Shown here piece by piece: positions 30,362-41,007 of a stretch of 46,616 bases of DNA (its first letter is position 1; the number at the start of each line of letters is the position of its first letter). The notes beneath the pieces are model-generated. The model searched no databases and had not been told where the DNA came from. It saw nothing but the letters and a program-made list of their open reading frames with translations. Origin of the DNA: an uncultured Rubrobacteraceae bacterium. Lineage in GTDB: Bacteria; Actinomycetota; Rubrobacteria; Rubrobacterales; Rubrobacteraceae. The DNA is taken from assembly GCA_902805975.1 (NCBI GenBank), contig CADCUT010000048.1, positions 1 to 46,616 of the forward strand, written 5' to 3'. The position numbers and the translations under genes were made by a program.

Positions 30362-30916
30362 CTACTCGTAGACCTCCCGCCAGCTCCACTGGACGACCTC
30401 CTTGCCGGAACCTCCGGATGCCTCCAGGATGACCTCCACCTTGCGCCGCGTACCGCCGACGGTCCCCTCGGAGACGACCAGGAAGAAGTCCCTGTCGGGG
30501 TAGTCGGGGAGGCCGGCGGGGACCCGCTCCGGCGCGTAGCGACCGTCCCTCTGCTGCGCGGCGGTCCGGGCGGGGATCAGGTACCGGACCGTCACCCTCG
30601 CGGCGCCTCCGCCAGGGGCCAGCGTTACGCCGGGCGCGCCTCCGTCGGGTGAGACGTAGGCCCAGCCGGAGTTGTCCGGGCCTTCGGCGTCGTAGTGGTC
30701 CGGGTTCGCGTCGGTTCGTAGTCGCGTGGCGGCGGCCTGGGCGCCGGCGTCGGCGAGGTGCAGCGCCCTCTGGCCCCGGTTAGTCTGGATCGTGCCTTCG
30801 AGGTCGCCCCGCACGACCGCGAGGAGGCCGGCGGCAAGCACCCCGATAAGGACCACCACGATCACGGCCAGCCCAAGCGCCACCCCGGACTCATCCCGCC
30901 GGAAACGACGGATCAT
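30362..30916 (-). CDS. PilX-type pilus assembly protein
   Basis: 184 residues. A short charged N-terminus (RRFRRDESG) precedes a long hydrophobic helix (about 11-35), as in PilX_N proteins, which are minor pilin-like components. A Glu-type cleavage signal is weak (SGVALGLAV), so processing is uncertain. The rest is a beta-rich domain with an IPARTAAQQRDGRYAPE segment. It overlaps the PilW-type gene by 4 nt (ATGA) and is last in the operon. Confidence 0.75.
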   Translation of the reverse strand: MIRRFRRDESGVALGLAVIVVVLIGVLAAGLLAVVRGDLEGTIQTNRGQRALHLADAGAQAAATRLRTDANPDHYDAEGPDNSGWAYVSPDGGAPGVTLAPGGGAARVTVRYLIPARTAAQQRDGRYAPERVPAGLPDYPDRDFFLVVSEGTVGGTRRKVEVILEASGGSGKEVVQWSWREVYE

Positions 30917-31506
30917 CTGTTCCTCAAGGCCACGACCGTCCGGAGGACCCGCTCGACGGGCTCCCTGCCCGACTCGTTGTCAACGGAGACCTCAAGCACC
31001 ACACGCACCAGGCTGACGCTCTCTTCGTCTCCTACCTGGTCCCCGTTCGCGTCGAGGTACTCGAAGGTCAGCGCCCTGCCGTCCCCGTCCACGTCCCCGG
31101 CGGACTCGACCAGCAGCCTGCCGTTGCGCAGCGGAGCGCCGCTGGGGTCGAGCGTGTAGGAGATCCCCTCCCCAGCCTCCGCGAGCCCGGTTGCCGGGTC
31201 GACCGTCCTGCGGTTGCCGTTCAGGTCGTTGCCGAAGGCGAGCCGGTCCTCTCCGAAATCCGCGAGCAGCGTCGTGTCTCCGTCGGCCCTGGCCCGCGGG
31301 TACGCCGCGCGGATCTCTCGCTCCATCCTCGCCAGGCCGAGGCGTGCCGCCTGTACCGCCTCCGCCCTGTCGCGCCCCGCCCCGAAGACCCTCACGCCCG
31401 CGTCGAAGACCGCGTAGAGCGCGAACAGCACGGCGGCCGTGATCACGAGGGCCACGAGCGCCTCTGGGAGCGTGAAGCCGTCCTCCCCCGCCAGCCTACG
31501 CCTCAC
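30913..31506 (-). CDS. PilW/GspJ-type prepilin
   Basis: 197 residues from the GTG at 31506, whose codon overlaps the PilV stop in a GTGA junction. The leader VRRRLAGEDG is followed by the cleavage site G/FTLPEALVALVITAAVLFALY, with Glu at position 5 of the mature helix. The C-terminal domain carries a DGDGRALTFEYLDANGDQVGDEE segment. It is expected to be a minor pseudopilin at the pilus tip. The longer ORF start at 31557 is rejected because it lies inside the PilV gene. Confidence 0.8.
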   Translation of the reverse strand: MRRRLAGEDGFTLPEALVALVITAAVLFALYAVFDAGVRVFGAGRDRAEAVQAARLGLARMEREIRAAYPRARADGDTTLLADFGEDRLAFGNDLNGNRRTVDPATGLAEAGEGISYTLDPSGAPLRNGRLLVESAGDVDGDGRALTFEYLDANGDQVGDEESVSLVRVVLEVSVDNESGREPVERVLRTVVALRNR

Positions 31507-31940
31507 GGCGGTTCCCCGGATACGACCCCGACGGCCGCGTAAGAGCCCTCGTCCCACCGCACGAGAACCTCGACCCGCATCTGCCCGGTGGGTGGCGAGC
31601 CCGCGGGGTTGGAGAGCCGCCCGTCCACGAATGCGGTCCTGACGGTGACGCTGAGGTCGCCCTCGGTGGCGTCCGGAGCCCCGGGCGGCGCGTACCTCTC
31701 GACGGCGCTGTCCGCGGCGCCGCCGGGCCTGCTGTAGGGGAGCGCCCGCGCCTCCTCCAGCTTCTCGCTCGCGAGCGCGCGGGCCGCGTCGTACTCGCCG
31801 GAGGCCGTGGCGGCGCGCAGGCCGGCCTCCAGCACGCCGACCATCGGGACGACGGCGAGGGTGAGGACGACCATCGCAACCGATACCTCGACGAGCGAGG
31901 AGCCGGTCCCGTCAGCCCACCTACTCGTAGACGATCCCAC
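31503..31940 (-). CDS. PilV-type prepilin
   Basis: 145 residues from the GTG at 31940. The 13-residue leader ends DGTG, and cleavage before SSLVEVSVAMVVLTLAVVPM places Glu at position 5, the PilV/GspI pattern. The C-terminal domain is short. Its start lies 20 nt inside the end of the GspH-type gene and its stop overlaps the PilW-type start. Confidence 0.78.
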   Translation of the reverse strand: MGSSTSRWADGTGSSLVEVSVAMVVLTLAVVPMVGVLEAGLRAATASGEYDAARALASEKLEEARALPYSRPGGAADSAVERYAPPGAPDATEGDLSVTVRTAFVDGRLSNPAGSPPTGQMRVEVLVRWDEGSYAAVGVVSGEPP

Positions 31941-32544
31941 CGACCCGAATCCTCGCCGTGGCCGCCTGGAAGATGAGGCCGCACGACGGGCTGCCGTCAT
32001 CGGAGCTGACCCTGACCGTGCCGCTCGTCCCAGGGCGCAGGGTTCTGACGGTCCCGTTGGAGTTGAACTCGATGGTCCGCGTGGCCCCTGGCCCGCAACG
32101 GCTCGGGGGGACGACGGCGTCCGGGTCGCCGCCGGAGCAGTCGGGGTCGAAGGTTACGTCCTTTACCTTCGTGCCCTCCGGCAACTCTTTGGGCGCTGGA
32201 GGGGCCCCGGGCGCCAGGGCGGGGGATGCGTCGCCGGCGTCGTAGGCGGTCTTCAGCTTGACGAGGCAGTAGTCCGCCCCGGAGCAGGCCGCGAGCGGCG
32301 TGCCGTCGTGCGTGAGCACCAGGCGCCAGTCCGTCAGCTGCTGGGTGGCGTTTGTGTGCGCCAGCCGCATGTCCGCGGCGAGTTGGGCCGCGGCGGCCTC
32401 GACCCGCCAGCGCTCCAACAAGGCGAGGAAGATTATCACGGAGATCGCGGCAAGGAGCCCCGCGATGGCGAGGGCTGTCAGGACCTCGGGCAGCGTGTAG
32501 CCCCGCCGGTCCTTCCATACTCTTTTGAGACCCGCCCCGAGCAC
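31921..32544 (-). CDS. GspH/FimT-type prepilin
   Basis: 207 residues. After a 15-residue leader ending DRRG, the mature N-terminus YTLPEVLTALAIAGLLAAISVIIF is a classic prepilin helix with Glu5. The globular domain has RVEAAAAQLAADMRLAHTNATQQ (GspH-like) and four cysteines that could form disulfides. It is first in a four-gene overlapping operon of minor prepilins. No pilus motor, prepilin peptidase or PilM/N/O genes are in the window. Confidence 0.85.
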   Translation of the reverse strand: MLGAGLKRVWKDRRGYTLPEVLTALAIAGLLAAISVIIFLALLERWRVEAAAAQLAADMRLAHTNATQQLTDWRLVLTHDGTPLAACSGADYCLVKLKTAYDAGDASPALAPGAPPAPKELPEGTKVKDVTFDPDCSGGDPDAVVPPSRCGPGATRTIEFNSNGTVRTLRPGTSGTVRVSSDDGSPSCGLIFQAATARIRVGGIVYE

Positions 32545-32577: not shown

Positions 32578-32596
32578 TAGCTAGCGGCGCTAGCTA
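32578..32596. repeat. Perfect short inverted repeat at the gloA stop codon
   Basis: TAGCTAGC and its complement flank a 3-nt centre (32578-32596). The gloA stop codon (TAG, 32596-32594) is the outer part of the stem, and the sequence carries TAG codons in several frames. It may act as a terminator or be a degenerate insertion target. Confidence 0.5.
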
Positions 32597-32974
32597 GGGG
32601 CGCTCGATAAACTCGATGCGGTAGCCATCCGGGTCGCGGACAAAGAAGATGCGCGTGCCGCTGCCCATGGCGTGGGGCTTGCTCTCGAACTCCACGCCGC
32701 CGGCCGACTCCAGCTTGTCTGACAGGGCGTCGAGGTCCTCGACGGCGAAGGCGACGTGGCTGTAGCCCGTCCCGAGCTCGTAGGGCTCTTCCTGGTCGTG
32801 GTTGAGGGTGAGTTCCAGCCGGGGCTCGGGGTCGCCCGGGACGGCGAAGAAGGCGTTGGTCGCGTCGTCGCCTATGGGCACCCGGCGGGCGAGCTCGAGC
32901 CCGATCTTGTTGGTGTAGAAGTCTATGGACTTCTCGAGGTCGAGGACCCTGTAGCAGGTGTGGACGTACTGCAT
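32594..32974 (-). CDS. gloA: Lactoylglutathione lyase / glyoxalase I (VOC superfamily)
   Basis: Converts the hemithioacetal of methylglyoxal and a thiol to the lactoyl-thioester. 126 residues from the ATG at 32974, with GGAG 6 nt upstream. Metal ligands match GloA: His5 (MQYVHTCY), Glu in RLELTLNH, His in GYSHVAFAV and Glu in YRIEFIE. Actinobacteria often lack glutathione, so the thiol may be a different cofactor. The gene is separate from the prepilin operon. Confidence 0.9.
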   Translation of the reverse strand: MQYVHTCYRVLDLEKSIDFYTNKIGLELARRVPIGDDATNAFFAVPGDPEPRLELTLNHDQEEPYELGTGYSHVAFAVEDLDALSDKLESAGGVEFESKPHAMGSGTRIFFVRDPDGYRIEFIERP

Positions 32975-33044
32975 CGCTCGCTCCTTTATCGCTCGGTGGC
33001 TACCAACCCCTGGTGACATGAGCATTGTAGCGACTGGAGGGGGG

Positions 33045-35144
33045 TTACCGCGGAGGGGGCGGGGTCCCGACCCTTTCGAGGTCCACCCTGTAAAGGTCGT
33101 AGCGGTCGCTCGGCTCGTCCCGCGGCACAAAGCCGGGCAGCCTCCCGAGCGCGGCGTCGAGGTTGGAGCCGGCCTCGACCATCACGAGGTCCACGTCGTG
33201 GCGGCGCAGGATCTGGACCCCCCGTCCGAGGGTCGTCCCGCTGAAGAAGTCCCTGACGTCCACAGCACCCTGGGGGACTTCGATCCTGCCCGGCACCCGC
33301 TCCTCCAGCCTGGGGAGGGCGTTCAGGACGAGACCACCCCTCCGGCTCACCACGTTGGCCTCAGGGGAATAGGCCGGGATGCGGGCGCCGAGAAGATCCG
33401 AGGCGAGCACGACCGTCGGCGAGTCGATCTCGTCCCGGAACCAGGGGTACAAGGGGTCCACCGGGTAGAAGCCCCCCTCCCTGGAGGACTCCTTGTGGGC
33501 CAGGATGGTCTGCAGACCATCCTGGGCCAACGGCACGGCCGCCAGGGACAGAGCGACCACCAGCAGGGGCGGCAGGACCAGACGCAGGAGGTTGATCCGA
33601 GCCCCGATCCACACAAGCGCCCACCACGCGAGCCAGCCGAAGGCCAGGAGCGCTGCGAGCGGGATGGGCCAGGCGAGGCGCCAGATCTGGCCGGGCAGGA
33701 CGAGCTCATCCCCGAGAAGGGTGGTCAAAGGGGGAACGTAGACGGCGAAGGTGGTGAGGAGCATGGTCCCGAGGAGTAGCTGGGCTGCGATGCTCCGCTC
33801 CACGCGCCAGAGCAGGAACGGCACGCTCGCGAGGAAAGCCACGGCGAGGACCGGGTCGAGCAGCAACGATGGGTGCATCATGTACGAGCCGTCGGCGAAC
33901 TCGAAGATGCGGGCCCTCTCCGGGCTGACGAAGACCATGTTCCTGAGGACGTCCGGGTCGCCGGAGTTGATGTCCGAGTCGGCGAGCACGTCGGTCAGCG
34001 GCCTCCCGGTGAAGGTCGGGATCAGGACGGCCGGAAGGACCATGACGACCACGCCCGTGAGGCCCATCGCCGAGACCCTCGTCCAGGCGGCGCGGCTTCT
34101 CGGGTTCGCCGCCAGGTGCAGGATGCCGAAACCCGCCATCGCCAGCCCGATTATGGCGAAGCCTATGGGATGGATGGTCAACACCGCGCACAACATGAAC
34201 GCGAAGCAGCCGAAGTAGCGCTTCCCGCCTCCATCCAGAAACGCCGCCGCGAAGGCGAGCGCTAGCGGAAGGAAGAGGAACTTGGTCGCGAGCTTGTCCT
34301 CCGGCAGGCGCTGGACGAACTCGCCCCCGAAGGTGAAGCGCGACTGGCCGAGGTGGACGAGAAAGAACAGGGCGTAGAGGCAGCCGCAGAAGAGCGCCGC
34401 CCTCTCGCTCCTGAGCAAGACCCGCGCCAGGGCGTAGAAGGCGAGAAGCGCCACGGCCACCAGAACCGGGTTCAGGTAGGAGAAGACGAAGTCTATAGGG
34501 TCGACGCCGGAGACCTTCGAGAGGGCGGCCTGCTCCACGAGCCAGCCGTTGATCTTGGCCCGCGAGAGCCCGACCTCACCCCCGAAGAACGGCTCGGCGG
34601 CACCCAGCCCGCCGGGACCCAGATACGCCCGGACCCACGCCAGGTAGACCCATATATCCCCGTAGGAACTTGGCGCGGTGATCCTGGCGACGTAAGCCAG
34701 CGCCCCGACCAGTAAGACGAACGGCGCCCACATCACCCCACCGCGATCGGTGACGAGAGATTCCGCCTCGCCCCCGGGACGGAACCCGGCGAAGGCGACG
34801 ATGGCCGCCGCGAGCAGGGAGACGATGACGAGCGTGCCGGAAACCCACAGGTAGGCGTCAAGGCTGGCGTCGAGGATGAGCAGGGGTACGGCTAAGAGCG
34901 CGAAAGCCCCGACGCCGAGCACGGACCCCACCGGCACCAGCGCGACCCCGGAGAAGTACCCGTTCAGGAACCAGCGGGCCACCAGCAACCCCGGCGCGAG
35001 TAGCAGGAGCATGGCCGCCGCGACCATGACGCCCGGCAGGGCTTCAAAGGCCCCCCGCAAAGGCCCGACCGCCGCGATAGACGCCCCGCCCAACAGGGCG
35101 ACGCCGGCCTCGAAGGGGCGGAAGCGTGTCCTAGTCTCGCCCAT
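33045..35144 (-). CDS. Polytopic membrane protein, GT-C glycosyltransferase-like
   Basis: 699 residues with at least 12 hydrophobic helices (about 15-570) and a soluble C-terminal domain (about 580-699). An early loop (YGDIWVYLAWVRAYLGPGG) with an acidic residue after the first helices is a GT-C hallmark, but no exact family can be named; it resembles DUF6077-type proteins. It probably transfers sugars from a lipid carrier to an extracytoplasmic acceptor. It lies 52 nt downstream of the arylsulfotransferase-like gene on the same strand, so the two are likely an operon for surface glycan decoration. A perfect 26-bp palindrome lies inside it (33500-33525). Confidence 0.65.
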   Translation of the reverse strand: MGETRTRFRPFEAGVALLGGASIAAVGPLRGAFEALPGVMVAAAMLLLLAPGLLVARWFLNGYFSGVALVPVGSVLGVGAFALLAVPLLILDASLDAYLWVSGTLVIVSLLAAAIVAFAGFRPGGEAESLVTDRGGVMWAPFVLLVGALAYVARITAPSSYGDIWVYLAWVRAYLGPGGLGAAEPFFGGEVGLSRAKINGWLVEQAALSKVSGVDPIDFVFSYLNPVLVAVALLAFYALARVLLRSERAALFCGCLYALFFLVHLGQSRFTFGGEFVQRLPEDKLATKFLFLPLALAFAAAFLDGGGKRYFGCFAFMLCAVLTIHPIGFAIIGLAMAGFGILHLAANPRSRAAWTRVSAMGLTGVVVMVLPAVLIPTFTGRPLTDVLADSDINSGDPDVLRNMVFVSPERARIFEFADGSYMMHPSLLLDPVLAVAFLASVPFLLWRVERSIAAQLLLGTMLLTTFAVYVPPLTTLLGDELVLPGQIWRLAWPIPLAALLAFGWLAWWALVWIGARINLLRLVLPPLLVVALSLAAVPLAQDGLQTILAHKESSREGGFYPVDPLYPWFRDEIDSPTVVLASDLLGARIPAYSPEANVVSRRGGLVLNALPRLEERVPGRIEVPQGAVDVRDFFSGTTLGRGVQILRRHDVDLVMVEAGSNLDAALGRLPGFVPRDEPSDRYDLYRVDLERVGTPPPPR
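33500..33525. repeat. Perfect 26-bp palindrome inside a coding region
   Basis: The sequence reads the same on both strands (centre between 33512 and 33513, core TGGTCTGCAGACCA). It encodes AQDGLQTIL in the membrane-protein gene. A palindrome this long is not expected by chance in a coding sequence and may be a protein-binding site or a regulatory RNA hairpin. No related copy is visible elsewhere in the window. Confidence 0.8.
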
Positions 35145-35196
35145 TACCCCCTCGAACGGGACGGCGTTACGCCGACCTTACGGGGACGCGGGGACG

Positions 35197-36720
35197 TCAA
35201 GAATCGTCCCCCCGGCTTTCTATCTCGGTCGTCATGATCCGGCCCAGAGCCTTCCCCGAACGGTCCTCCGCCTGCACGCCGACGTAGGGCTCCGGGGTCT
35301 TTACCTCGATGACGGTCTCGAACCCGCGCCGGGGTACGGAGTCGATGGGCTCCAGCTCGTCCGGCCCCGGACCGGCGAAGACCTGCCAGGCCGCCACCTC
35401 GGTGGCGCCGTTCCAGCTCGCGTAGAGCGTTACCCTGTCCCCCCGCCCACCCTCGGTCGTCACGGTGGGCTCGTCGTCGGGCCGCCCGCTCCACGGCATG
35501 CGGAAGGCCCGGTAGGACTCACCCCAGGGCGCGAAGGCGGCGTGGAAGAGCAGCTCGCCGTCCCTGGTGAACTCGGAGAAGTACGGCTCGCTGCCCCACC
35601 CGACAAAGACGTTGCCGTTCGGCAGCACCTGCACGTTGCCCTGGGTGTCCGCGATGGGCATTCCCTCAGGCGCGAAGTACTCGCGCACCAGGTCAGCCCG
35701 CATCGCCTCCTCGTCCACGTCGAGCACTACCGCGCGCGAACGGTCCTCCTCGCCGTTCGGGCCGTAGTTGTCGAAGAGGGTGATGGTGCCGTCCGGCTGG
35801 CGGCGGGCGTCGTGCTGGTAGGCGAAGGCGGTACCCTCCCCCATCGTAAAGTCGTTTTGCTCCCCCCCGAGGCGCCAGATCACCCCGCCGCTCTCGCGGT
35901 CGATCTTGTAGACGGTCGAGGTCCTGCGGGCCGAGACGAGCAGGTTGTCGTCGGTGTCCACATCCACGGAGTTGATGTGGAAGTAGTCGAAGCGGTTGTC
36001 GGGGTTATCGACGGGCTCGTAGTAGGACTCCCCGACGTCCACGTGCTCCAAGCTGCGCCACTCGAAGAGGACCTCGCCCGACGCTATGTCTATCTCCTGG
36101 ACGATCCCATCCAGGACGAAGCCGTCCACCGGACCGCCGTAGGGAGAGAGATCCCAGGGGGTCTCGGCGTAGATGGTCACGAGGGCGGTATCTCTGTCGG
36201 TGATGTGAAACTCGTGGTGGTCCCCCTCGCGGCCGTTGCCGGCCTTGAGACGCTTCACCTCCCTGTAGGACTCGTCGAAGATGACGTACTCTCCGTCGCC
36301 GTACCCGCCGTGGATGCCCCCCCACCAGGTGAGGACGGGCCGTCCCCGGTAGGTCTGCGCCTTGAAGTCCATCACGTCGGGCTCGCCGGGCGGGGCTGGA
36401 CGGAACCAGACCGGCTGGCCTTCGTCGTCGACGATCATCGGCCCGTCCTGGCCGGGGCCGGTCTCGTCAGGGTCTTTTTTCGGGGCGAGGAAGATGTAGC
36501 CCGGGGCGGTCCCGCGCCGGCTCTCCAGCACGCGCACGGCGGGCGGCCTCAGGTCCGGGCGCGAGCGGAAGAGCCACGCCTCCGGCGGTCTTCTGAGGGA
36601 CGCGGCCGCCGCCCGGCCGGGGTCGGTCGACCCGCAGCCCGCGACGCCCATCAGCGCCAGCCCCGCGGCGCCGGCGGTCGCCGCCACGAGAAACCCGCGC
36701 CGCGTGGTCTTCTGCCCCAA
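35197..36720 (-). CDS. Tat-exported arylsulfotransferase-like lipoprotein (ASST family)
   Basis: 507 residues. The N-terminus has a twin-arginine signal (TTRRGFLVAA, Arg7-Arg8) and a lipobox VAGC with Cys29, so a Tat-exported lipoprotein. The beta-propeller part resembles the arylsulfotransferase family; the conserved region is YQHDARRQPDGTITLFDN, where the family's sulfo-accepting histidine is found. Repeated WRLGG/FDYFHINSVDVD blades support a six-bladed propeller. The substrate is unknown and the sulfotransferase activity is inferred. It precedes the GT-C-like gene. Confidence 0.78.
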   Translation of the reverse strand: MGQKTTRRGFLVAATAGAAGLALMGVAGCGSTDPGRAAAASLRRPPEAWLFRSRPDLRPPAVRVLESRRGTAPGYIFLAPKKDPDETGPGQDGPMIVDDEGQPVWFRPAPPGEPDVMDFKAQTYRGRPVLTWWGGIHGGYGDGEYVIFDESYREVKRLKAGNGREGDHHEFHITDRDTALVTIYAETPWDLSPYGGPVDGFVLDGIVQEIDIASGEVLFEWRSLEHVDVGESYYEPVDNPDNRFDYFHINSVDVDTDDNLLVSARRTSTVYKIDRESGGVIWRLGGEQNDFTMGEGTAFAYQHDARRQPDGTITLFDNYGPNGEEDRSRAVVLDVDEEAMRADLVREYFAPEGMPIADTQGNVQVLPNGNVFVGWGSEPYFSEFTRDGELLFHAAFAPWGESYRAFRMPWSGRPDDEPTVTTEGGRGDRVTLYASWNGATEVAAWQVFAGPGPDELEPIDSVPRRGFETVIEVKTPEPYVGVQAEDRSGKALGRIMTTEIESRGDDS

Positions 36721-36857: not shown

Positions 36858-38432
36858 ATGGAGAAGGCTACAGGCGGCCCGCCGGAGAGCCCGACCCGCA
36901 GGGCGGCCACGATCGCGCGGGTCGGGGCCCGCTACGGGTTCGGGTTCGTCTTTGGTGGCCGCCTCTCCCGCCGCGGACCGGCGGACACGGGGCGGATCGG
37001 ACCCCGGCTCCGCCTCTCTTTAGAGGAACTGGGCCCGACCTTCGCGGAGTTCGGACGGTTTCTCTCCGCCCGGGGCGACCTGATCCCCCCCGACGTGGCC
37101 GCGGAGCTCGCCCGCGCCGCAGCCCCCGCCAAGCCGGTCCCCTTCGCCGAGACGAGGGGCATCGTGGAGCGGGAGCTCGGCAACACGCTCGAGCGGCTCT
37201 TCGTCTCTTTCGAGGAGGCGCCGGTGAGGACAGGAGCGCTCACCCAGGCCCACCGGGCGACGCTGCCCGGGGGGAGGCCCGCGCTCGTCGTCGTGGACCG
37301 GCCAGGCATCCGCCGCGACCTCCTGGCGATGCGCCCGGTGGCGGACCTCACGCGGCGCAGGATCGGCGCGCAGCTCCCGCTCGACCCGAATCTCTCGGTC
37401 TCCGAGTTCACAGCCCACGTCAACCACCGCAGGGACATGTTCTTTGCCGCCAGGATCTCCCACCAACTACGCGAGATGGACGGCTTCGCCCTCCGAGTCC
37501 CCGAGCTCTACCGGAGCCTCTCCACCGGCCGCTGCGCCACCTTCGAGGCTCCAGCCGCCCAGGAGGCCGTGGACGGGACCGGACACCGCAAGGTCGCCGG
37601 CGCCCTCGCACGGCTCGCGCTCCTTGACGGCATCTTTTTCGCCGACCCGTCCCCGGAGCGCTTCGCGGTAGACGGGCTCACCGGGGAGGTCTGGCTTCTG
37701 GACCCGACGGAGGTCTTCTCGCTCGACCCGGAGAGGCTGCGCGGGGTTGCCGAGGTGCTGGCGGCCGTCCGCCGGGGGGACGTGGACGGGATGGTGCGGA
37801 CCCTTCCCCTCGCCGGGGGCACCGTCCCCCGCGACGACGCCGACCTCAGGCGCGAGCTGCGGGAGGCTCTAGGCTCCCTCGGGGGCCCGCTCTGGGAGGA
37901 GCACACCCTGGCGGTGATGCGGACGCGGGCTCTTGAGGCCCTGCGCCGCGGCGGCGCGAAGCTGCACGACGAAGTGGCGCAGGCGGCCCACTCCCTGGTG
38001 GCCGCGGAAGCCCTCTCCGGCAAGGAGACGCATACGGCCGCAGAGGCTGCCCGGGCGCTCGTCGCCCGCCACAGGGACCCGGCCTACGTGGCCGCCCGGA
38101 CGGCGCGCAGGCTCGCCCAGCCCGACACCTTCGCCGACTACCCGCGCCAGATCCACGCCCTGCTCGACGAGCTCAAGGACGGCGAGGTCGAGGTCCGGTT
38201 CCGTCACGCGGGCCTCGACGACCTGATCGGACGCGTAGACATCCTCGCCAACCGCCTGGTCTTCGCCCTCCTGATCGCCGCCCTCATCATCGGCTCCTCG
38301 ATGCTCGGCATCTTCGTCGAGGGCGGACTCCAGATCCTCGGCGTCAGCGTCTTCGGCCTGATCGGCTTCGTCTTTGCCGCAGTCCTGGGCTTGCTTCTTC
38401 TCATCGGAATCATCCGCTCAGGACGGCTGTAG
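36858..38432 (+). CDS. UbiB/AarF-like protein with degenerate kinase motifs (pseudokinase)
   Basis: 524 residues that follow the UbiB/ABC1 plan: GPTFAEFGRFLSARGDLIPP (normally GPTFxKxGQxxSxRxDxxP), a TQAHRATLPGG loop, a RPGIRRDLL helix and two C-terminal TM helices (about 465-520). Catalytic positions are lost: the Lys of KxGQ becomes Glu (EFGR, 64-67), the VAVK Lys becomes Val145, HPGN becomes SPER (266-268 region), and DFG becomes DPT (Asp282). So it probably does not phosphorylate; a structural or lipid-binding role is inferred. No quinone genes are adjacent. The ATG is 36858. Confidence 0.75.
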   Translation: MEKATGGPPESPTRRAATIARVGARYGFGFVFGGRLSRRGPADTGRIGPRLRLSLEELGPTFAEFGRFLSARGDLIPPDVAAELARAAAPAKPVPFAETRGIVERELGNTLERLFVSFEEAPVRTGALTQAHRATLPGGRPALVVVDRPGIRRDLLAMRPVADLTRRRIGAQLPLDPNLSVSEFTAHVNHRRDMFFAARISHQLREMDGFALRVPELYRSLSTGRCATFEAPAAQEAVDGTGHRKVAGALARLALLDGIFFADPSPERFAVDGLTGEVWLLDPTEVFSLDPERLRGVAEVLAAVRRGDVDGMVRTLPLAGGTVPRDDADLRRELREALGSLGGPLWEEHTLAVMRTRALEALRRGGAKLHDEVAQAAHSLVAAEALSGKETHTAAEAARALVARHRDPAYVAARTARRLAQPDTFADYPRQIHALLDELKDGEVEVRFRHAGLDDLIGRVDILANRLVFALLIAALIIGSSMLGIFVEGGLQILGVSVFGLIGFVFAAVLGLLLLIGIIRSGRL

Positions 38433-38444
38433 GCTCCTCCCTCC

Positions 38445-38583
38445 GGGCGCTTTCAGCCCGGCGCTCCGCGCCCCTCGGCTTGTTGCTCGTGGTGTGAGAT
38501 CGGGCGCTCTGAGAGAATGCCCGGGTTCGGCGAACGGTTTACGGACGGCGGTTTCGCGGAAGACCTGGTAGCTGAAAGCGCCC
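38445..38583. repeat. 13-bp perfect inverted repeat between UbiB-like and flavin reductase genes
   Basis: GGGCGCTTTCAGC (38445-38457) and its exact complement (38571-38583) are 113 nt apart. The left copy starts 13 nt after the UbiB-like stop codon, so its layout echoes the heptad elements (arm at a stop, arm before the next start), but the sequence is not made of 7-bp units. It could fold as a long transcript hairpin. Confidence 0.55.
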
Positions 38584-38619
38584 GTCAGGGCGCGTGCTAC
38601 GAGCGGCGAAGGAGCGAGC

Positions 38620-39096
38620 ATGGAACAGACGCGCAGTGAGATCTTGAAGACCATTCCCTACGGCTTCTACATCACGGGCGTGGTGGGAGCGGATGGGGAG
38701 GCGAACGGGTTTACGACCTGCTGGGTCTCGCAGGTCTCCTTCGAGCCGCAGCAGGTCGTGATCGCCGTCCGGAGGGACCAGCGCACCCACGAGCTCATGG
38801 AGCAGGGCGGTGTCTTCTCCCTGAACTTCCTCGACACGGAGCAGGAGGACCTGGCCAACCGCTTCACCCAGCCCCTCGAGCCGGAGAACGGCACGGTCGG
38901 CGGCGCGGCCTACGTCAAGGGAGAGACCGGGGCCCCGCTCTTCGAGGACGCCTTCGCCCATCTCGAATGCCGCGTGGTTGGAAAGATGGAGGCCGGGGAC
39001 CACACCGTCTACCTCGGCGAGGTCGCCTCGGCGAACCTGCGACGCCCCGCCGACATCCTAACCGACCTCGACACCCCCATGGAGTACGGGGGCTGA
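38620..39096 (+). CDS. Flavin reductase family protein
   Basis: A 158-residue FMN-binding split-barrel protein of the flavin reductase-like family. The N-terminal part (IPYGFYITGVVGADGEANGFTTCWVSQVSF) is the flavin-binding signature, and RRDQRTHELMEQGGVFSLNFL follows the typical NTHxLI region. It supplies reduced flavin to a partner monooxygenase or reduces a flavin-linked substrate; no partner is nearby. AAGGAG precedes the ATG by 7 nt. Confidence 0.88.
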   Translation: MEQTRSEILKTIPYGFYITGVVGADGEANGFTTCWVSQVSFEPQQVVIAVRRDQRTHELMEQGGVFSLNFLDTEQEDLANRFTQPLEPENGTVGGAAYVKGETGAPLFEDAFAHLECRVVGKMEAGDHTVYLGEVASANLRRPADILTDLDTPMEYGG

Positions 39097-39173
39097 ACGG
39101 CCCCGCCTAAAGCCCCCCGCCGCGACGGCCGAGAAACAAGAGGACCGAAGGCGGCTACGAAAGCGGGGCGAAC

Positions 39174-39293
39174 GTGGGCGATGGCATCGCGACGGGTGGC
39201 TTGCCCGACGGGACCACCGGGCAGGAGGGCCAGCTCCCGCGGCTTCTTACGGACGGGCGGGGTTTCACGCTCGTGGAGTTGCTCGTCGTGGTA
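39174..39293 (+). pseudogene. Truncated type IV prepilin (PilA-like), interrupted by an integrase
   Basis: 40 codons from the GTG at 39174: a 30-residue leader ending DGRG, then the mature helix FTLVELLVVV. Prepilin helices normally continue with a conserved hydrophobic stretch such as ILGILAAIAIP; here the frame breaks after VVV into the reverse of the serine integrase. The rest of the gene is not found in the window. The break position matches an integration site in the most conserved codons. Confidence 0.75.
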
Positions 39294-41007
39294 ACGTTGC
39301 CGTTTCGCAAACGGCCGTTCCCTGGGGCGCACCTGCCCAGCTCACCTCGACGGTACCGTCGGTCCCGATGGCGGCCTGGAGGCGCAGCAGCTTGTACCAT
39401 TGCTGCCTCTCCTCTGGCATGAGTGAGTCGAGGACCTCGGGCGCCATGGCCTCCAAGGAATCGATGAGTGCATCCCGGTCGCGCTCCAAGTCCCTGACGC
39501 GCTCCTCCTGTCCGCGCACGGCGGCGAGTTCGCGCTCCGCGATCCCGCGTGTTTCCTCAAGTTCTGCCAGCCTTGCGCGCAACTCGTCGAGGGTTATTAG
39601 GTCGCCAGCGGCCATCTCCTGATAGCGGGCGCGCTTACGGTCAACCTCCGCGAGCTTCTCCGCCCATCGCCCGGCTTCCTTGCCCGGGTCTCCCCGGGTC
39701 CCCTTCTCCAGCTCGATCATGCGGTCGATGTCGGCGCGTAGATCCTCGGGGTTCTTCATCACGCCCGAGACGTACTCCCAGACGAGCGGCTCCACGCGGT
39801 CCACGCGGTGGACCTTGCGGTTGGGGCACGGGTTGTGCTCGTAGCCTACGCTGACCCTGGAGCAGTGATAATAGAAGCTGATCTTCTTACCCTCGGTGCG
39901 CCGCCCGCCGCCGTGCGAGGTGAGACAGCGCATTGCCCAGCCGCACTCCGCGCAGCGGGCGAGGCCGCCGGAGAGCTGCCACTCCCGCTTGCCGGCCTGC
40001 GAGGCCTTCTTGTTGTCCTTGATAGCCGCCCGCGCCAAATCCACCCACTCGCGGGGAACGCCGGAGTCGGGGATGGGGACGGCGATCCACTCGGTCTCAG
40101 GCCTCGGCGTTATCTTGGCGCGCTTCTTGTAGGTCTTCCCTTCGGGGCCGTTGACGGCCACCTGGTACCTCTTCGTCCGCCGCCTGTTGAACCACCAGAT
40201 CCCGTAGCGCTTCTTGGGGTCGAGCCGGTCGGCCACCTCTCGCGCCATCTGACCCTTGGCGACGAGGGCCTCTATCTCTTCCCAGGTGTGCGGCCGGTAG
40301 GCGTCGTCGTTCACCGCTTCCCGGATAAAGAATTGGCCCCAAATGCACTTTCCCTCGGGAGTGGGCAGTCCCTCCCGCTCGAAGATCTTCTTCACGCCTC
40401 GGATGGCGACGCCCTCGGTGCCGATCATGCGGAAGACGCGCCCCACGACGTACATCGACTCCTCTTCGACCTCGTAGCCGTCCCTAGTAGCGTTGTAGCG
40501 GAAACCGAAGTGTGGGCGCTTGGTCGCGATCACCTTGCCCTCCCGCGCCTTCCTGAGCTTCCCCCGGCGGCTGCGCTCCGCGATCTTGAGTCGCTCGTAG
40601 CGCGCGATCTGGTCGAGGATGCCGGTAGTCAACTCGCCTTCGGGGCTCCCGTCTGCGCGGTCGTTAAGCGCTCTCAGCTCAGTCCCGCACTCGGAGAACT
40701 CCTCCCGCAGGTAGAAGAGGTAGGCGGGCTCGCGGGCGAAGCGGTCGCGGTCCTGCGCCAGCACGATGGAGACGCCGCCGGCCGCTACGAGGTCCCGCAC
40801 CCGGTCCATGCCGGGCCTCTCCAGGGAAGCCCCGCTCTGCCCCGGGTCCACTACCTCTTCCAAGACCTCGTAGCCTTCGGCGGCGGCGTAGGCCCTGAGG
40901 GCTTCTATCTGTTGGGCCAGGGAGTAGCCGCTGCGGGCCTGCTCGTCGGTGGAGACGCGGGCGTAGAGGACGGCTGTCTTCGGGCCGTGGCCGCTGAAGT
41001 TGGGCAT
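39265..41007 (-). CDS. Large serine recombinase (site-specific integrase)
   Basis: 580 residues. The N-terminal catalytic domain has the nucleophile Ser19 in ARVSTDEQ, and the RFAREPAYLFYLRE and GILDQIARYERLKIAERSRRG segments typical of the large serine integrases. A recombinase domain follows, then a zinc-ribbon with CAECGW and a YYHC/CPNRK pair near residues 355-400, and a coiled-coil C-terminal region (about 440-545). The last dozen codons read through the prepilin gene remnant, so the integrase 3' end lies at the attachment site. It is intact and could be active. The XRE gene lies 2 nt upstream. Confidence 0.93.
   Translation of the reverse strand: MPNFSGHGPKTAVLYARVSTDEQARSGYSLAQQIEALRAYAAAEGYEVLEEVVDPGQSGASLERPGMDRVRDLVAAGGVSIVLAQDRDRFAREPAYLFYLREEFSECGTELRALNDRADGSPEGELTTGILDQIARYERLKIAERSRRGKLRKAREGKVIATKRPHFGFRYNATRDGYEVEEESMYVVGRVFRMIGTEGVAIRGVKKIFEREGLPTPEGKCIWGQFFIREAVNDDAYRPHTWEEIEALVAKGQMAREVADRLDPKKRYGIWWFNRRRTKRYQVAVNGPEGKTYKKRAKITPRPETEWIAVPIPDSGVPREWVDLARAAIKDNKKASQAGKREWQLSGGLARCAECGWAMRCLTSHGGGRRTEGKKISFYYHCSRVSVGYEHNPCPNRKVHRVDRVEPLVWEYVSGVMKNPEDLRADIDRMIELEKGTRGDPGKEAGRWAEKLAEVDRKRARYQEMAAGDLITLDELRARLAELEETRGIAERELAAVRGQEERVRDLERDRDALIDSLEAMAPEVLDSLMPEERQQWYKLLRLQAAIGTDGTVEVSWAGAPQGTAVCETATLPRRATPRA

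Follow-up and report, generated by a model that had tools for sequence, protein, structure and literature searches.

A putative UbiB-family pseudokinase, lacking the nucleotide-binding motifs and maintained by selection, in the class Rubrobacteria

The open reading frame studied here lies on contig C48 of a 3.5-Mb genome (82% complete) of an uncultured member of the Rubrobacteraceae, and the whole stretch of 46,616 nucleotides that was analyzed is called the window. When recomputed, its limits, strand and length were exactly those given in a preliminary description made from the DNA letters (Table 1). The frame is a genuine gene and its product a true homologue of the UbiB/ABC1 proteins.

Table 1. 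Features of the locus, with positions in the window and residue numbers of the 524-aa protein
Feature	Position	Strand	Description
Glyoxalase-I-like (VOC) gene	32594..33130	-	divergent partner of the putative pseudokinase gene
Putative UbiB-family pseudokinase gene	36858..38432	+	524-aa ORF
KxGQ equivalent	37047..37058	+	E64-F65-G66-R67
A-rich-loop equivalent	37227..37256	+	residues 124-133
VAVK equivalent	37281..37292	+	residues 142-145, ALVV
ExD and alpha-C-Glu equivalents	37428..37448	+	residues 191-197
HxDPHPGN equivalent	37638..37661	+	residues 261-268
DFG equivalent	37701..37712	+	D282-P283-T284-E285
C-terminal membrane module	38133..38429	+	residues 426-524; amphipathic stretch and two hydrophobic helices; best conserved part
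Flavin-reductase-like gene	38620..39096	+	co-directional, downstream; also found in 10 of 20 neighbourhoods, in one of them by a weak match (47%)

The glyoxalase-I-like gene is divergent from the putative pseudokinase gene in all 20 neighbourhoods, as it is in the window. It directly adjoins that gene except in the window and at loci L086 and L087, each of which has two intervening genes. In the window (33045-36720) these are an arylsulfotransferase-like gene (PF14269) and a gene for a DUF6077 membrane protein, an arrangement found among the 20 neighbourhoods at L086 and L087 only. Positions 30362-32544 hold a series of genes resembling pilins or pseudopilins, two of them with N-methylation motif matches, and pilin-like genes beside the glyoxalase gene are kept in many relatives. 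On the downstream side, genes for flavin reductase or ClpS are often present and are followed by CruF-like, UbiA-type prenyltransferase and CrtI/D-like genes. A gene for a large serine recombinase (39265-41007) is located where homology to the closest relative ends: the match to that relative (G020:C306, L151) covers 38352-39292 at 89% and breaks in a pilin-like frame, at the stretch coding for FTLVELLVVV. A mobile element appears to have been inserted into a pilin-like gene near position 39292; its second end was not found within the window.

The 524-aa protein matched PF03109 (ABC1/UbiB) with an E-value of 1.1e-14 and 54.6 bits (curated cut-off 22.9), and scored 121.8 bits against TIGR01982, far under the equivalog cut-off of 487.55, so that it is not assigned as a UbiB equivalog. 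A match to 30S S7 (E 0.0038) was dismissed as chance. When 26 orthologues were aligned with eight canonical UbiBs by hhalign, the probability was 100; the match, 35% identical across 520 columns, kept the motifs in register and extended to the final C-terminal residues. The general plan of UbiB that had been recognized previously, with LGPTF, SxR, DLIPP, RPGI and two C-terminal hydrophobic segments, was found in full. Kyte-Doolittle windows of 19 residues above 1.6 begin at residues 456-476 and 482-506, and none of those starting before residue 440 exceeded 1.3. The PF03109 score above the cut-off, the kinase-like fold with an N-terminal extension and the C-terminal helices place the protein within UbiB/ABC1 by descent.

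To read the state of the motifs, 30 orthologues were aligned with 20 canonical paralogues from Rubrobacteria (group A), three further UbiBs and 13 UbiBs of the C19 type, with 28 to 30 readable orthologue rows depending on the motif position. Positions were assigned from this alignment and from residues K358, E405, E411 and D488 of ADCK3 (PMC4718504). The canonical paralogues had the canonical residue at every position listed, with KxGQ, ASIGQ, VAVK, the ExD and alpha-C glutamates, HGDPHPxN and DFG intact in 20/20 rows. By comparison, the orthologues retain only three aspartates, the glycine of KxGQ and the glutamine of the A-rich loop. The KxGQ lysine is replaced by Glu64 in all 28 readable rows and the glutamine by Arg, His or Tyr. 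In the A-rich loop, the canonical A-S-I-G-Q has given way to R124-x-G126-x-x-T129-Q130, of which only Q130 is a canonical residue; R124, T129 and Q130 are fixed in 29/29 readable rows and G126 in 28 of them. The VAVK lysine is Val145 in 29/29 readable rows. The ExD glutamate is Arg191 in all 30 orthologues (R-R-D), with Asp193 kept in every row, and the alpha-C glutamate is Ala197 in 26 and Ser or Thr in the other four. In the HxDPHPxN block neither histidine column holds a histidine, and the asparagine, a column that we take to be N493 of ADCK3, is Arg268 in 30/30; the aspartate D263 persists in 26 of the 30 rows. DFG has become Asp282-Pro-Thr-Glu285 in 30/30, the aspartate being kept. None of the invariant columns among the 26 aligned orthologues contains a lysine.

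These results partly bear out the preliminary description, which had proposed that KxGQ, HPGN and DFG were altered to EFGR, SPER and DPT; all three replacements do fall at the positions of the canonical motifs. For VAVK it had read VVVD: the lysine is truly gone, but that register was two residues off, and the lysine column corresponds to V145 and not to D147. Its statement that all the signature residues had been replaced was too strong, as D193, D263 and D282 remain. The ExD, alpha-C and A-rich-loop changes, and the conservation of the replacements themselves, had gone unmentioned. The pseudokinase reading that it advanced is supported, since hhalign placed the true motifs nowhere else in the sequence and no readable orthologue row retained the KxGQ lysine, the VAVK lysine, the alpha-C glutamate, the HPxN asparagine or the Phe-Gly of DFG.

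An orthologue with 59-93% identity was detected in 33 of the 39 Rubrobacteria genomes searched, and was absent from G003, G005, G013, G018, G032 and G033; among the 33, copies are cut by contig ends in G004, G007, G023, G029 and G037. When the protein alone was used to scan 84,980 species genomes, a search that can detect only close relatives, seven loci were returned, all of them in Rubrobacteraceae. A profile built from 26 orthologues was run against 396 genomes of the phylum; the highest-scoring matches were confined to the class Rubrobacteria, and the best match outside the class (316 bits) fell within the range of the canonical paralogues of Rubrobacteria themselves; the same profile found no match in viral contigs. 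From the 58 outside genomes matching at an E-value of 1e-30, 20 stretches from 18 genomes were read. Both the KxGQ and the VAVK lysines were present in the 19 stretches covering them, as was the HPxN asparagine in 19/19, and DFG was intact in 18/19, the remaining one having DVG. Because the outside stretches read are canonical, the pseudokinase state was found, in this sample, only in Rubrobacteria.

The genome of the window also contains two strong ABC1 matches, on contigs C68 and C19, both with canonical motifs. The canonical UbiB of C68 (G000:C68:17020-18645) is 38% identical to the putative pseudokinase end to end, a likeness that covers the N-terminal extension, the kinase-like domain and the C-terminal membrane module. 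A canonical paralogue with all motifs intact occurs in most of the genomes that carry the pseudokinase gene: among the 22 genomes with a completeness of 90% or more and a contamination of 5% or less, both were present in 20 (in pieces in G023, and with a broken orthologue in G028), the paralogue alone in G005 and neither in G013. The orthologue without the paralogue was found in G007, G009 and G037, which are 75-86% complete. The co-occurrence is consistent with a possible partner link between the two proteins, but the exceptions are too few to weigh for or against it.

In the phylogenetic tree, which was built by a quick method after the removal of six partial rows (four orthologues and two from outside the class), the putative pseudokinases formed one clade (SH-aLRT 100) on a stem of 1.74 changes per column, the long-branch warning of the method falling on other rows. 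The fork between this clade, the Rubrobacteria paralogue and the outside canonical group was left open as to the sister order. Omega was 0.15-0.28 in five pairs of orthologues, which indicates purifying selection; for the paralogue, four matched pairs of genomes gave 0.09-0.18. These values were computed on stop-to-stop open frames, where upstream in-frame codons can inflate omega in some pairs, probably most in G015/G014 (0.275), and dS was high in the pair G011/G010.

The distribution of conservation along the protein was compared as mean pairwise identities within orthologues, within paralogues and between the two groups, using 26 of the 30 orthologue rows and excluding the partial ones. 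The values were 67, 84 and 46% for the N-terminal extension (residues 48-90), 63, 86 and 21% for the catalytic block with DFG (259-300), 78, 71 and 56% for residues 426-460, and 78, 70 and 53% for residues 461-524, where the hydrophobic helices match those of the canonical paralogue. Conservation therefore peaks in the catalytic block in the paralogue and in the C-terminal membrane module in the pseudokinase clade. This shift is the clearest sign that the function has moved off the nucleotide pocket.

A structure was predicted with AlphaFold2. Eight close sequences gave a mean pLDDT of 39, and a usable model was obtained only after the addition of a single canonical UbiB, taken from a viral contig; the best model reached a pLDDT of 70.4 and a pTM of 0.67, with four sibling models at 42-54 and low confidence at residues 191-194 and in most of 420-524. 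Foldseek returned 12 matches with an E-value below 0.001, all of them UbiB-family entries. By VIA, human COQ8A (5i35) was the nearest fold (Z 18.9, rmsd 4.8, 345 residues, corresponding to model residues 46-411), other UbiB entries followed down to Z 13.8, and RIO kinases came next, from Z 10.2. The prediction thus agrees with the assignment to UbiB, although the canonical row may bias the model toward the family fold, so that it counts in favor of homology but does not prove it independently.

The nearest known systems differ from the protein in informative ways. COQ8A/ADCK3 (4ped, 5i35) is inhibited as a kinase by its own KxGQ, ExD and A-rich loop, and keeps all the traditional catalytic residues and binds nucleotide, according to PMC4718504; the Rubrobacteria protein shares its fold but has neither the lysine, the alpha-C glutamate nor the asparagine, and its hydrophobic helices are C-terminal. 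The mycobacterial ABC1 proteins Rv3197 and MSMEG_1954 (5yjz, 7cy2) are actinobacterial UbiB-family members with the same fold as the model, and their structures contain ADP or AMPPNP according to the entry titles. In yeast, Coq8, Cqd1 and Cqd2 are described as acting on quinone lipids, and UbiB relatives, whose substrates are hydrophobic quinone intermediates, have been proposed to couple ATPase activity with lipid extraction or distribution (PMC8346625). Cqd1 and Cqd2 are likewise UbiB paralogues with roles in the distribution of a quinone lipid, and they require their kinase-like residues (PMC8346625), unlike the present protein, which has lost them. In a study of COQ8B, the whole CoQ pathway was stimulated in an ATP-dependent manner and COQ3 was phosphorylated (PMC7615680), and the way in which UbiB/COQ8 proteins use ATP at the membrane has been termed mysterious (PMC7263595). 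A literature search covering mostly open-access papers found no paper on a UbiB-type pseudokinase like this one, and the main text of a paper on bacterial pseudokinases (PMC12599244) contains none of the terms UbiB, ABC1, AarF, ADCK and Rubrobacter.

Pseudokinases are defined by missing motifs (PMC4718504), and here the nucleotide-binding and catalytic motifs are missing in a gene that selection maintains. We conclude from the aligned sequences that the gene very probably encodes an ancient, selected UbiB pseudokinase. It would have had a single origin at or before the base of Rubrobacteria, where a canonical UbiB was duplicated and one copy then lost its nucleotide pocket. With no beta-3 lysine, alpha-C glutamate or Mg-binding asparagine left, the protein would neither bind nor hydrolyse Mg-ATP. 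On the other hand, the retention of D263 and D282 speaks for possible residual binding of a nucleotide or a metal, and among pseudokinases there are some with predicted ATP binding and some with known catalysis of other reactions (PMC12599244, PMC9758233).

The residues left could not run the known ATP cycle of UbiB, and for this reason an ATP-independent lipid-binder, or a partner of the paralogue, is proposed. The function in lipid handling or scaffolding that the preliminary description suggested is plausible, given the retained membrane module and the biology of UbiB, and we consider the chances of an ATP-independent membrane role of this kind, with lipid or with a partner, to be about even. 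Taken as a whole, the explanation that we somewhat favor is a pseudokinase that acts at the membrane, without ATP, as a lipid-binder or as a partner. It would be seated in the membrane by the module that it has in common with the canonical UbiB, and might either bind isoprenoid lipids, such as menaquinone precursors or C50 carotenoids, or pair with the canonical paralogue and regulate it. The requirement for kinase-like residues in known UbiB function (PMC8346625) counts against a function without them. More tentatively, the whole class may harbor a lineage that dropped the ATP cycle and became a locked lipid-binder or obligate partner, with a charge-reversed latch and a metal site sealed by arginine. 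The alignment would place E64 opposite R191, so that the latch between KxGQ and ExD would be kept with its charges reversed (canonically, a lysine faces a glutamate) and could hold the protein in a single constitutive conformation; likewise, R268 would lie beside the kept D282 and may plug the metal site.

Several other explanations were weighed against this one. WNK-type kinases are a precedent for activity with a relocated lysine, and a divergent UbiB that is still active as an ATPase or kinase, using the remaining aspartates and a lysine placed elsewhere, would agree with the conserved D263 and D282 and with the kept UbiB fold; we regard it as very unlikely, as the beta-3 lysine, the Mg-binding asparagine and the alpha-C glutamate are replaced in every readable row and no invariant column supplies a substitute lysine. 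A rebuilt pocket (E64, R124, T129, R191, R268, D282, T284, E285) that catalyzes another reaction would account better for the charged or polar replacements, most of which are invariant, since a simple scaffold would demand less, and SidJ is an example of a pseudokinase fold acting as a polyglutamylase (title cited in PMC9758233). Nevertheless, nothing points to a substrate or a cofactor, and the membrane module is more conserved (78%) than the catalytic block (63%), so that a new enzyme of this type appears unlikely. A decaying pseudogene is scarcely credible: in G028, a two-contig assembly (L083/L103), the orthologue is split among several reading frames, by sequencing error or decay, and one copy in G035 shifts frame, but these breaks affect two of 39 genomes and are possibly assembly errors, whereas the orthologues are open and conserved class-wide under the low omega values given above.

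The neighbourhood brings in a further candidate function, in which the protein would hold or shuttle a C50 carotenoid between a UbiA-type elongase, CruF and CrtD during the formation of bacterioruberin. In 22 of 39 genomes a CruF-like gene (PF04240) shares the contig of the orthologue at a distance of less than 5 kb, and UbiA-type prenyltransferase and CrtI/D-like genes come after it in most of the neighbourhoods that hold it. Clusters of CruF-like, UbiA-type prenyltransferase, CrtI/D-like and class-V aminotransferase genes are seen at L086 (2777-7011), L094 (3754-6787) and L100 (2655-7543), the prenyltransferase matching PRK13595 with 421 bits (cut-off 248), and are probably bacterioruberin genes. 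Most relatives have such a cluster close to the pseudokinase gene, but none was seen in the window, whose genome has a single, weak and distant CruF match. Moreover, the conserved synteny also includes pilin-like genes and YchF, so the proximity of CruF says little. The orthologue occurs without CruF in G002, G026 and G027 (92-99% complete), and CruF without the orthologue in G005 and G013 (98-100% complete); as each occurs alone in near-complete genomes, the carotenoid link was set aside as the main explanation. We consider it improbable, and a carotenoid role of the pseudokinase is a lead only.

If the favored reading of an ATP-independent pseudokinase is true, the membrane function of UbiB would be separable from ATP hydrolysis. 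A selected paralogue without a pocket, beside a canonical copy, would offer a natural test separating ATP-dependent from ATP-independent functions, and its fixed substitutions would reveal the contacts that are important without nucleotide. As for the distribution of the family within single genera, G013, which is listed as 100% complete, has none of the three types of UbiB save a short fragment (C116), and G012, of the same genus, carries both the pseudokinase and the canonical paralogue.
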